Assembly (NCBI RefSeq): GCF_001956985.1
Contig: NZ_CP019082.1
Location: 7,254,001 to 7,318,000 of the forward strand
Source: Paludisphaera borealis
GTDB taxonomy: Bacteria > Planctomycetota > Planctomycetia > Isosphaerales > Isosphaeraceae
Length of the DNA: 64,000 bases
Direction of reading: 5' to 3'
Below are positions 39,304 to 44,383 of this stretch, one piece after another. The notes beneath the pieces are model-generated. The model saw nothing but the letters and a program-made list of their open reading frames with translations. It ran no database searches and was not told where the DNA came from. A program made the position numbers and the translations under genes. Position 1 is the first letter of the stretch, and every line of letters starts with the position of its first letter.

Positions 39304-40745
39304 TCAACGGACGACGATCGGCCCCTGGTCGGTCAACAGGGTGACGGGGCCGTTCAGGTCGGCGACGGCCTTGGCGAACTGGGCGGGATCGACCACGGGT
39401 TGGTCGCCCACCTGACGGATGATCTGCCACTTCTTGAGCCCCGCCCGGGCCGCGGGCGAGTCGGGCTCGATTTCGCGGACGACCACCCCCGCCGGCAGCG
39501 CGTCGACCAGGTCGATGCCGGCCGGCCGGGCGTTGAGCGTGCTCAGGTAGTCGACCCGAAGCCCCCGCCAGGCCGGCGGCTGCGTCGTGGCGATGACCTC
39601 GCCGTCGACCGGGAACTTGGCCAGGACGATCGGCTTTTCGATCTCCTGCCCGTCGCGACGGACGAGAAGTCGGATCGAGTCGCCGACCGAGTACGCGCCG
39701 ATGGCCAGGATAAGCGAGTCGAAGTCGAACACCGGCGTTCCGTTGACCCCGATGATCTCGTCGTTTCGTTGCAGGTCGCCGAGCGCCGCGGGCGAGTTGG
39801 GCGCGACCGTCTCGACGCGGTTGGTGCTCTGCAAATGGGGACGGACTCCCAGCAGGCCGTACTCGATCTCCTTGCCCTTCTTGAGCGTCTCGACCGCGCG
39901 GCGGCCCATGCGGTCCATCGGGATCGCGTAGCCGGCCATGGCGTCGAAGCCGGCCGGGCTCGACGCCATCGTGGTCAGCCCCACCAGCTCGCCCTTCATA
40001 TTCACGACCGCCCCGCCGCTCATTCCCAGGTTGAGCTTGGCGTCGAGCTGGAGGAGCGTCGGATAATTCGGAAGTTGCAGGGGCGCCCGCCTCGTGAATG
40101 AGACGTCGTCGATGTCCTGGTCGATCCGGCGGGAGACGTTCGAGAGAATGCCCCAACTCGCCGACGCCTTGCCGTCGCGCGCCGCGTTGAACGGATTGCC
40201 CAGGACGACCAGGAACGACCCCTTCCGCAGCGCGCCGGCGTCGCCGAGCGGGATCGGCTTGAGCTTGGGCTTCTCCAGACCTGGAGTCGAGATCGGCGCG
40301 ATCACGGCGAGGTCGCTGCGCGGATCGGCCGCGATGACCTCGGCCTCGAAGACCTGCCGATCCGTCGCCCGCACGATCAGCCCCCGCGCGCCCTTCACCA
40401 CATGGAAGGCCGTGAGGATCTGCCCCTCGTCGCCGACCACCACGCCCGATCCGAAGTCGAACGAGATCTGATCGTTTTCCTCGCCGAGCGGACGGGCTCG
40501 GGTGATCCCCCTGGACCGACCTGGCGAGGCCGCCGCGTCTTGCCCCGGACCGCCAGGGTCTCCTGGGCGTTGTCGGCCTTGTCGCGGTGAATGGCCACCA
40601 CCGACGGCTCAGCCCGCGCGATGGCGTCGGCCAGGGTCTTCTCCAGGGCCGAAACCACGTCGATCGCCGCCGGGGCCGGGGCCGCCGCCTTCGGAGGTTC
40701 GTCCCAGGCCAGGGTCGTACAAGCCAGGCAGAGCAAGAACGTCAT
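39304..40745 (-). CDS. HtrA/Do-like serine protease with PDZ domains, apparent frameshift near the N-terminus
   Basis: The start (ATG at 40745) gives a signal peptide (TFLLCLACTTLAW) and DAIARAEPSVVAIHRDK, the usual opening of the protease domain, in one frame. The remainder lies in the -1 frame: DFGSGVVVGDEGQILTAFHV with the catalytic histidine, RSDLAVI with aspartate and LGMSGGAVVN with serine, then two PDZ domains (GVRPHLQSTNRVETVAPNSP; REIEPDSPAARAGLKKWQII). Joined, the protein would be ~480 residues. The frames switch between about 40507 and 40546, where C5 (40507-40511) and C4 (40543-40546) runs occur; one extra base in a run would restore the frame. This may be a sequencing error, a true mutation or slippage. 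All catalytic residues are in the downstream frame. Confidence 0.75.
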
Positions 40746-40769
40746 CAACTTATCCCTTTCACTCGACCC

Positions 40770-41495
40770 CTACGACGCCAAGCAGTGTTCGTCGGCGGAC
40801 TCGACGACCGCCTCCGGGTGGTGCGACTTGAACATCCCGTCCGCCGCCGCCCTCGCCTGCCGGGAAGCGACCGCGAGGATGTCCTGCCGATCGCGTGGTG
40901 AGAACGGGACGAACTTGGGGTCGATCTCGACCAGGGCGCCGACAAGAGCGCCTCCGGGGTCCGCTGGAGAGTCGCCGTCCCGAGTCGCCGTCGAGTAACC
41001 GACCGCGCCCCGGAGCCTCATGTTCTCATAGGAGGTCACATACTCGACTTTCGCGTTCCATTCATTCGTGTGGTCGCCCCGATCATACTGGACGATGAAG
41101 AACAGACGAGCGGGTGCGATCTCCGGATAGATGTAAGCGCCCTGGATCGCCATGTCCCCGAGCCGACCGCCCTCATAGGTCACGGCCCGGCCATCGGGAT
41201 CGCGGTCGCGGATCTCAACGGCCGCCTTCACGATCGGATTCTCGGGGTTGAGTAGATCCAAATCGGAGATCGTGACCCACTTCGACGGGACCTTGGCGAT
41301 CGAGGGGATGAGGCGGCGATATGCTTCGTTCGAGTTCTGTCCATCGACGAGCGGGGACGCGATATAAAGTTCCCATGAGACCCTGCCGTGGCGAAGAATC
41401 CAGAACGCCGCCGCGACCTCGAATCCGTCGCGGGCGAGCTGTTCGACGAGCTTGCGCCCGTCGTCCTTCTGTTCTACCAGTAGTTCCGAATCCAT
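40770..41495 (-). CDS. Uncharacterised partner of a HEPN protein
   Basis: 241 residues, no signal peptide or membrane segment. The N-terminal half (EQKDDGRKLVEQLARDGFEV; LYIASPLVDGQNSNEAYRRL) resembles small uncharacterised proteins I associate with an upstream HEPN gene; no catalytic motif was recognised. The C-terminal ~90 residues (from about NEWNAKVEYVTSYENM) look like a separate globular part. The ATG at 41495 lies inside the HEPN gene (22-base overlap), implying coupled expression and probably a complex. Toxin-antitoxin roles are known for some HEPN pairs, but the partner here is not a recognised nucleotidyltransferase. Confidence 0.6.
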   Translation of the reverse strand: MDSELLVEQKDDGRKLVEQLARDGFEVAAAFWILRHGRVSWELYIASPLVDGQNSNEAYRRLIPSIAKVPSKWVTISDLDLLNPENPIVKAAVEIRDRDPDGRAVTYEGGRLGDMAIQGAYIYPEIAPARLFFIVQYDRGDHTNEWNAKVEYVTSYENMRLRGAVGYSTATRDGDSPADPGGALVGALVEIDPKFVPFSPRDRQDILAVASRQARAAADGMFKSHHPEAVVESADEHCLAS

Positions 41496-41908
41496 ATCAT
41501 CACCCCGTTCGGCTCGTCGGTGATCGCCGCGACGAGCTTTCTGGCTTCGGCCTCCGACTTCTCATCATAGCGACTTGTGACCGCCCACTCCTTCACGACT
41601 TTCCAGTTGGCCCGGAACTCGACGCCCTCGGGTGTGCTGGCCGCCTCCATCTGGTTCAGCTCGGCCTGCATTCCGGCGATTTTGATGAGCGTCGAAAAAT
41701 CGTGCGTTCGGCACTCATCGACCCGTTTCGCGTTCTCGTCGAAAACCCAGCCGGTGAGCACCATCCGTTTCAAAAGGCACGCCTTGAGGGCGCATTCGAC
41801 GGCGTAGCCGGCGACATAATACGCGAACGCCCCCCGGCCGCCGGCAAGCAGCACCTCGGCGTCCCGCGTGCGCTCCTCCGTCATCCGTTGCAGTTCGGCG
41901 TGATTCAA
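41474..41908 (-). CDS. HEPN domain protein
   Basis: 144 residues from a TTG at 41908: GGAGG lies 7 bases before it, a better site than any before the in-frame ATG at 41884. RDAEVLLAGGRGAFAYYVAG and YAVECALKACLLKR are the HEPN core helices (residues ~14-48), and RTHDFSTLIKIAG the H-containing helix after it. The classical RNase motif Rx4-6H is not clearly complete (the RTH spacing is too short), so nuclease activity is doubtful. It overlaps the uncharacterised gene downstream by 22 bases. Confidence 0.72.
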   Translation of the reverse strand: MNHAELQRMTEERTRDAEVLLAGGRGAFAYYVAGYAVECALKACLLKRMVLTGWVFDENAKRVDECRTHDFSTLIKIAGMQAELNQMEAASTPEGVEFRANWKVVKEWAVTSRYDEKSEAEARKLVAAITDEPNGVMIWIRNYW

Positions 41909-42047
41909 CCCGAATCCTCCCCGGCCGTCGTCCGTTTTCGCTCATCCCGGACGGCGCCGGTCCGATACTTCCATTTTTTCGGTTCCATCCCGGTCGCGGC
42001 AACCCAGGATTTGAAGGGCGGCGGCCGCGAAGGGGAGAAATCGCCAC

Positions 42048-43196: not shown

Positions 43197-44383
43197 CGAC
43201 CAACCCTTTCGTGAACGACCGGAACCACGGACCTCGAATCGACCTCCTCCCCCCGCGCCGGAAGCTCGCCGGAAGAGTCCGCTCGATCAGACTGGCTCCG
43301 ACACCGCCTGTCAATGATCGAAGCCGCGCCACGCCACACTCCCGCACTGGCCAACACAATCCGCTCGATCCACCCGAACAGAAAAATCGACCCGCTCGCC
43401 GCCCCACGGAAAACTTCATCCAAACAGATGCATCGTGTCATATACTCATAGTGAGGAATTCCGTCTCGGAACGATCTTTGTCAATCCGGCATGCGGTCTC
43501 CGGCTCGATCGGAGTTCATCACGAAATCGGAGCGAACGAACCCAATTCGCCGGCCGGCCCGATCCCGACGCGGGGGACGGATCAGGACGAGCGACGACCC
43601 GAAAACGCGTTGGTTTCCGCGCGAGCGAACCCAGTTTCGCCATCGCGATGAAAGCCAATGCACGCAAAGAGTTGCGGTTGATTCTCGGCCGCCCGCGACA
43701 CGACGAACGAACCCAATCGCCGGCGCGGCCGGGACGATCCGTCGGGCCGATCGACGGCCCCGAAGCCGGCGGGTTTCCGCGCGAGCGAACCCAATTTCCT
43801 CACAGCGAATCGAATTCGACCCCATCAGGTGTCAGGACGATCCTTCGGCCGATGGCGACGCGCCGAACAAACCCAATCACGAAAGCGACGCGGCGACGGG
43901 CGAGGCCGCTCGTCGCCCCCCGAATGCGGCGGGTTTCCGCGCGATCGAACCCAATTTCCAGTCAGCCCACAACGTCTTTGAAATCCAGGACTTACTGCGG
44001 TTTTTCGGTCGCCCGCGTCGCGCCGAACAAACCCAATCGCGATACCGCCCGGCCAGGCGTCGGGATGCCGGAGGCGACGGCCCCGGGGCCGCGGTCCGGG
44101 CGGCCGGCGGTGTGTTTTGTCGTCGAACCAAGCCAATTGCGGGAGATCGCCGCCACGGTCCACACGACGCGATGCGCTCAACCACGAATTCCACCGGATT
44201 GACAGCCTAAGAAGTCCATCGGATAGTGAATCCACGGCGACGAGGACCGACGGGACGAACCGGGTCGAGTTCCCCAGGGTTCGAGTCACTCAACCCGCGG
44301 CGATGTCGTAGAGTGATTGAGGGCGGGGCGTTCGCGGTTTCCATCTCGCATTTCTGGTCGTGTCAGTCGGGGGGATCGGTTCC
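43197..44383. other. Gene-free region with a periodic array of CCCAAT boxes
   Basis: About 1.2 kb. 43197-43500 holds no recognised element. 43530-44140 holds the periodic array (separate entry). 44140-44383 leads to the ExbB-like gene; the G-run at 44369-44374 is the likely ribosome binding site for the ATG at 44384. Several long open frames cross the array in different phases, but they are not coding by composition or conservation. Confidence 0.65.
43530..44140. repeat. Array of eight CCCAAT boxes, period about 160 bp
   Basis: CCCAAT-type boxes begin at 43541, 43630 (CCCAGT), 43712, 43790, 43872, 43950, 44032 and 44132 (GCCAAT). From 43630 to 44032 the spacings alternate 82 and 78 bases. 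Two box types alternate: type A, GGGTTTCCGCGCGAGCGAAC-CCAATTTCC (43611, 43771, 43931, exactly 160 apart), and type B, CGCCGAACAAACCCAATCGC (43701, 43861, 44021, exactly 160 apart). The sequence between boxes is mostly unrelated. Confidence 0.85.

Follow-up and report, generated by a model that had tools for sequence, protein, structure and literature searches.

The 64,000 nucleotides of Paludisphaera borealis contig NZ_CP019082.1 between positions 7,254,001 and 7,318,000 (hereafter the window) contain two overlapping genes that raise the question of what a HEPN protein does together with a partner that belongs to no named family in Pfam, NCBIfam or PADLOC. An initial annotation had described a HEPN gene with a TTG start that overlaps the gene of a 241-residue protein by 22 bases, and the open reading frames (ORFs) agree with this. 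The HEPN protein (144 amino acids) is encoded at 41474-41908 and the partner (241 amino acids, ATG start) at 40770-41495, both on the minus strand, and the 22 shared nucleotides (41474-41495, minus strand) code for WIRNYW and a stop in the HEPN and for MDSELLV in the partner. The TTG start is supported by a GGGGAGG Shine-Dalgarno sequence (41916-41922, minus strand) that stands 7 nucleotides before it. We propose that the pair is a mobile two-gene module of toxin-antitoxin type, in which the HEPN would be the toxin and the partner would neutralise it by non-enzymatic means, a reading that the sequences make reasonably probable.

Co-occurrence of the two genes across genomes had been set beforehand as a test, and the pair proved to be strongly co-conserved. 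We searched 397 Planctomycetia genomes with a profile of the partner N-terminal domain (21 rows, E≤1e-5) and a profile of the HEPN (20 rows). The partner profile listed 106 places in 73 genomes; a look for HEPN upstream found one directly adjoining at 96 of these places, 90 of them overlapping by exactly 22 nucleotides, and at six loci that lack a clear upstream HEPN there was none elsewhere in the fetched stretch. The HEPN profile matched in 102 genomes, a count that includes weaker HEPN families, and a partner was present for 80 of the 81 matches at E≤1e-40. When the sole exception (genome G179) was read, a partner frame with a GTG start was found at the same place, so that no full-length HEPN of the family at E≤1e-34 in this HEPN-led search stood without a partner. 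Partial HEPN matches at E≤1e-20 without a partner numbered four, on two contigs, with G151:C198 counted twice and G036:C388 once, in addition to second pieces of split genes. As a separate observation, G151:C198:905-6891 holds three partial HEPN copies about 2.8 kb apart, without a listed partner match.

The pair is also found well beyond the planctomycetes. Our DNA-level set comprised 145 loci. The window and 105 fetched loci make up its 106 planctomycete members, 37 more are of viral or phage origin and 2 lie on plasmids; the HEPN was full-length in 117 of the 145. A HEPN-profile scan of viral contigs returned 36 IMG/VR loci, nearly all with a partner; 24 of the 25 that were read showed the 22-nucleotide overlap and a partner of 124-141 amino acids. 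With one Klebsiella phage record added, the overlap was 22 nucleotides in 36 of 37 and 25 nucleotides in one, and these viral loci include many near-copies (23 distinct full-length HEPNs). A partner profile built from planctomycete sequences only recognised every one of the 39 partners from viruses, phages and plasmids and had no match among 390 shuffled sequences. A partner-profile scan of viral contigs and a single-protein scan of genome contigs each gave no match; a scan of genome contigs with a closer alignment gave 20 matches, all planctomycete or unplaced metagenome-assembled genomes by title. In Escherichia coli the pair occurs in 189 of 5,426 complete genomes, always chromosomal and at ≥99% identity, annotated as HEPN plus "hypothetical protein". 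The two E. coli regions that we viewed both adjoin tRNA-Arg and lie ahead of ybcN-ninE; in one the pair follows prophage replication genes, and in the other, a shortened prophage, it follows a broken integrase. Two plasmids, from Acinetobacter and Deinococcus, carry the pair, both with the 22-nucleotide overlap. On the Acinetobacter plasmid pAJ4131 (13.9 kb; locus L117, 3837-6360) it adjoins a BrnT/BrnA toxin-antitoxin pair and a DUF6236 gene. Across the phylum as a whole the pair is rare, with matches in 7 of 392 genomes, of which two belong to the home class and one gave only a partial match, and P. borealis itself has a second pair at C1:1416733-1417505, with a partner of only 137 amino acids. 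Small, co-directional, co-conserved and mobile, the two genes have the form expected of a toxin-antitoxin module. The earlier suggestion of a possible new HEPN pairing of toxin-antitoxin or defence type is supported, and neither of the two results named in advance as refuting it was obtained: the genes are co-conserved, and by sequence the partner is no known MNT. It needs qualifying in that the pair is not private to this genome, that PHROGs already contains the HEPN family and the prophage-type partner as "unknown function", and that the predicted fold of the partner weakly resembles an MNT. In the open-licence PMC literature we found no paper evidently describing the pair, and accession and family names returned none.

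The junction between the two genes is nearly invariant. An overlap of exactly 22 nucleotides was seen in 113 of the 117 loci with a full-length HEPN and in 134 of the 145 over all loci examined, the four exceptions among the 117 being planctomycete loci scored at 4, 10, 68 and 103 nucleotides. It codes W-x-x-x-x-W-stop in the HEPN and M-x-x-x-x-L-V in the partner. The motif GG[AG]GT occupies positions -11 to -7 of the partner start in 91 of 98 distinct junctions (by single position: G 98, G 97, A or G 97, G 92, T 98), and the same bases code a conserved Gly-Val of the HEPN; in the window the motif reads GGGGT (41502-41506, minus strand), lies within the codons of Gly135-Val136 and ends 6 nucleotides 5' of the partner ATG. 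The Gly codon of this Gly-Val has a purine as its third base in 101 of 103 cases, compared with 57 of 104 at another invariant Gly (Fisher p 8e-15) and 294 of 578 when all remaining Gly codons are pooled (Fisher p 4e-24). Such a bias indicates selection on the nucleotides over and above that on the protein, which is what a ribosome-binding site lying inside a gene should show. The Gly-Val codon pair doubles as a Shine-Dalgarno sequence for the partner. Translation of the partner would begin from this site inside the HEPN gene, at a start that precedes the end of the HEPN stop codon by 22 nucleotides. Each HEPN message would thereby also yield partner.

We found that the two genes are not lost equally. 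When loci at contig edges are set aside, 103 planctomycete loci remain. At 25 of these the HEPN is not present as one full-length frame (six without a clear remnant, one near-whole, the others fragments), and at 23 of the 25 the partner domain is intact. The opposite state, a full HEPN with an incomplete partner-domain match, was seen at 5 loci, each with an ORF of 115-235 amino acids, and these short matches look like divergence rather than breakage. The difference between 23 and 5 is significant (p 0.0009), and no clear reverse case, with the partner broken and the HEPN intact, was found; at G290:C946 a stop ends a full-length partner domain and does not fall inside it. On the partner tree, 24 broken HEPN states need 23 changes. 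This one-sided loss points to a toxin-antitoxin-like relation, since losing the toxin and not the antidote is the expected pattern. We rejected the idea that the HEPN breaks are programmed frameshifts, as the break points differ along the model, and also the idea that the partner is kept for a fused C-terminal domain, as an ORF of ≥200 amino acids is found for only 5 of the 25 partners that adjoin a broken HEPN. One locus with a broken HEPN (L140, G006:C174) has a genuine MNT gene (PF01909) about 560 nucleotides beyond the partner match.

The partner evolves under constraint, as shown by the ratio of nonsynonymous to synonymous substitution rates in the 60 closest pairs, which was 0.04-0.38 where both HEPNs were intact and 0.08-0.30 where one was broken. 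Distances between HEPNs and distances between their partners were correlated (r 0.73 over 104 pairs), and none of 999 shuffles gave as high a value.

The window HEPN exceeds the cut-off of Pfam PF05168 (24.8 bits against 22; a relative, L082, reaches 27.8 bits). Its ribonuclease (RNase) motif had been called incomplete, correctly so: no histidine follows Arg113, and neither Rx4-6H nor Rx4HxY is present. Across the family, 104 distinct full-length HEPNs were compared: 12 have an R-x4-6-H within their last 45 residues and 92 have none there, whereas His69 and Arg113 (window numbering) are kept in all 104; a Tyr adjoins the conserved Arg in 101. It has been previously reported that PF05168 members often vary at Rx4-6H (PMC3710099), so that its absence does not exclude membership of this fold family. 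The sequences have the character of the AF0298-like HEPN-T (PF05168) and AbiV proteins, in which the motif Arg is kept, its His is lost and a second conserved His further upstream could form an alternative active site (PMC3710099). A genome-scale assay is reported to have found toxicity even for HEPNs that lack the motif (Anantharaman et al. 2013, PMC3710099). The HEPN is thus a probable RNase toxin of PF05168 (AF0298/AbiV-like) type, which would use His69 and Arg113 as an alternative active site in place of Rx4-6H. What sets it apart from AF0298-like HEPN-T and AbiV is its fixed overlapping partner of an unnamed family, which does not figure in their description in the part of PMC3710099 available to us. 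A profile comparison of the HEPN with the PDB gave no match. It matches phrog_5737 of PHROGs (4e-27; function listed as unknown) and, in PADLOC, the candidate defence model PDC-M28A, at 9.4e-10 for the window protein and at 1.8e-7 and 3.5e-6 for two relatives.

The partner had been regarded as one protein of unknown fold. That description needs revision, since it has two parts, a conserved N-terminal domain common to the family (residues 1-126; 41118-41495, minus strand), delimited by AlphaFold2 and alignments, and a variable C-terminal domain (40773-41117, minus strand). The accompanying claim that it is not a recognised MNT protein is borne out. For the window partner, Pfam gave nothing at E≤1 and NCBIfam and PADLOC nothing at E≤5, none of six partners tested matches any PADLOC model, a profile comparison with the PDB gave no match, and hhalign against 26 MNTs from the phylum gave a probability of 0.3%. 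GSx10DxD is not present in the window partner, and the family alignment (134 rows) has no conserved catalytic acids; its only mostly acidic columns are 37 (D/E 87%, Gly in the window) and 118 (70%). We therefore rejected, at the sequence level, the candidate that the partner is a known MNT. Two prophage partners tested match phrog_5760 (PHROGs, unknown function; 4e-90 and 4e-6), to which the window partner itself has no match at E≤1.

AlphaFold2 modelled partner residues 1-129 with a mean predicted local distance difference test score of 90.6 and the full protein with 75.2, the C-terminal domain being poorly modelled. The predicted order of elements in the N-terminal domain is alpha-beta-beta-alpha-beta-alpha-beta-beta. 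With VIA-align, the top neighbour of both models (full protein and N-terminal domain) was the MNT 2rff (Z 7.5 and 7.2; 3.5 Å, 95 aligned), followed by OAS3 (6.5) for the full protein and by the MNT 1ylq (6.2) and OAS3 (6.0) for the N-terminal domain; the RimP-like 1ib8 scored 5.8 and 5.7 in the two models. Foldseek returned nothing below E 0.001 for the partner models, and neither did a structure search of BFVD. The first rank of Foldseek for the full model was a flagellar MS-ring protein, and the MNT of a HEPN-MNT complex appeared at ranks 9 and 16, with RimP and ribosomal proteins higher. The resemblance of the confidently modelled N-terminal domain to MNTs, and to RimP, is weak. In the reading proposed here this domain, perhaps a nucleotidyltransferase fold whose catalysis has been lost, would bind the HEPN as a non-enzymatic neutraliser.

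Beyond the N-terminal domain the partners differ widely. At least 50 further residues were counted by script in 38 of 145 partners and fell into 7 clusters and 6 singletons; the singleton tail of L116 looks like a divergent end of the N-terminal domain, and without it there are 37 extensions of 12 kinds. The other 107 partners have no extension of ≥50 amino acids. Of ten tails or proteins scanned with Pfam, one contains AbiU2 (PF18734, 9.8e-9) and one DUF3800 (3.2e-4, just over the cut-off), and the other eight have no match above the cut-off. The C-terminal domain labels need 20 changes on the partner tree, where the least possible is 13. The window C-terminal domain belongs to a cluster of 4 tails, three of them in other partners. 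Its profile (A7) found 9 places in 7 of 198 genomes, all 7 in the window's family: 4 fused to the N-terminal domain and 5 in other ORFs, from which it follows that the extension is optional. This domain is also seen in the small proteins L018, L020 and L031 with a different N-terminal stretch. An optional, exchangeable domain of this kind may sense a trigger or tether the complex.

Comparison with known systems bears directly on how the partner might act. The pair resembles HepT/MntA (HEPN-MNT, type VII toxin-antitoxin) in consisting of two small genes, a HEPN and a partner, and the fold of the partner N-terminal domain is possibly similar according to the models. In HepT/MntA the MNT lies upstream and AMPylates the HEPN by means of its GSx10DxD motif (PMC7641770, PMC4621449, PMC11586414); here the partner lies downstream, has no GSx10DxD, and faces in the window a HEPN without Rx4HxY. 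The HEPN families also differ (PF05168 here, PF01934/PF08780 there), as do the 22-nucleotide overlap and the variable C-terminal domains found here. A true type VII system, with AMPylation of the HEPN by the partner, would agree with the HEPN pairing as such, with MNTs as the top VIA-align neighbours and with the Tyr beside the conserved Arg; set against the reversed gene order, the lack of conserved catalytic acids and the lack of MNT similarity by Pfam or hhalign, it is hardly credible. AMPylating neutralisation by the partner is unlikely because the partner has neither the MNT motif nor any profile similarity. A different, distant HEPN/nucleotidyltransferase pair, AWB99_RS04535/04530, was reported to be toxic and neutralised in M. 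smegmatis (PMC13284704). Among defence systems of E. coli, Vassallo et al. 2022 (PMC9519451) report a remote similarity to HEPN for 6 of 21.

An anti-phage (abortive infection) system, with the HEPN as effector, the partner as sensor or activator and the variable C-terminal domain recognising an invader, deserves more weight, although we think it on the whole unlikely. The HEPN resembles component PDC-M28A of the PADLOC candidate PDC-M28, one E. coli prophage has the pair flanked by replication genes and ybcN-ninE, and the 12-13 kinds of C-terminal extension include the AbiU2 and DUF3800 domains. On the other side, none of the six partners tested matches a PADLOC model, most partners carry no extension of ≥50 amino acids, and the repeated loss of the HEPN from loci that retain the partner is easier to understand for an antidote than for an activator. 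The same one-sided loss, together with the patchy distribution and the carriage on prophages and plasmids, speaks against a non-toxic RNA-binding or regulatory complex in which HEPN catalysis is lost and both proteins act as a regulator. The absence of R-x4-6-H from most of the family would fit such a complex, for which MtlR provides a precedent of non-catalytic HEPNs (PMC3710099), but the invariant His and Arg are more than a scaffold should need, and we regard it as improbable. A HEPN toxin with a neutralising partner remains the best reading because the loss is one-sided in the manner of a toxin and the His/Arg pair is invariant where the RNase motif has been lost.

Several points weigh against this toxin and neutraliser reading. 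Toxicity, RNase action and binding of the pair are predictions drawn from sequence, HEPNs without Rx4-6H may only bind RNA (PMC3710099), and the usual order of such genes is antitoxin-first (PMC4621449), whereas here the toxin would come first. One of the 25 "broken" HEPNs (L207) still matches positions 2-131 of 138, and HEPN loss is no commoner in multi-copy genomes (12 of 56 loci) than in single-copy ones (13 of 50). The partner tree on which the changes were counted has 63 of 131 inner branches unresolved, and since draft or metagenome assemblies are the source of many of the loci, sequence errors may account for some of the HEPN lesions, although such errors should hit the partner too. The correlation of distances partly reflects shared ancestry, falling to r 0.37 in the 49 less similar pairs. 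As to the partner, the nucleotidyltransferase-like fold rests on Z 7.2-7.5, a level that the tool calls common without a clear match, and Foldseek places RimP first for the N-terminal domain (E 0.0023, probability 0.94). The profile comparison with MNTs was empty. We therefore describe the N-terminal domain as having perhaps a nucleotidyltransferase-like fold and do not class it as a member of that family.

The surroundings of the pair in the window contain an htrA-like protease, a GDSL lipase and an exbB-like gene recognised by Pfam, and alaS, identified by reading of its ORF; none of these is a defence gene. The htrA-like gene is present in 6 of 6 genomes of the genus. In two relatives htrA adjoins alaS, the same arrangement as in the window, and the flank that was read there showed neither the HEPN nor the partner gene, which is consistent with acquisition in the window genome. 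Directly downstream of the partner, the htrA-like gene of the window (39304-40748, minus strand) is split into 40395-40748 and 39304-40443 in different frames, whereas in five relatives its ORF is unbroken at about 490-520 amino acids. Between the GDSL lipase and the exbB-like gene, at 43582-44040, lies a repeat with a period of 160 nucleotides, comprising three copies of 49- and 52-nucleotide blocks that are 63-88% alike.

These results describe a very tight HEPN pairing whose partner lacks the AMPylation motif and which differs further in its reversed gene order and variable added domains. The pair is also relevant to the mode of action of HEPNs without Rx4-6H, a question that the 2013 account did not close (PMC3710099). 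It stands without an assigned function in the E. coli genomes that carry it, and these relatives are directly open to testing. We also offer, as a tentative and rather doubtful proposal, a new family of neutralisers with this partner as its founding member: a nucleotidyltransferase scaffold, its catalysis lost, would keep a HEPN RNase in check purely by binding it and would at the same time be a platform on which sensor domains can be exchanged. If this were true, one HEPN toxin chassis could be wired to many triggers.
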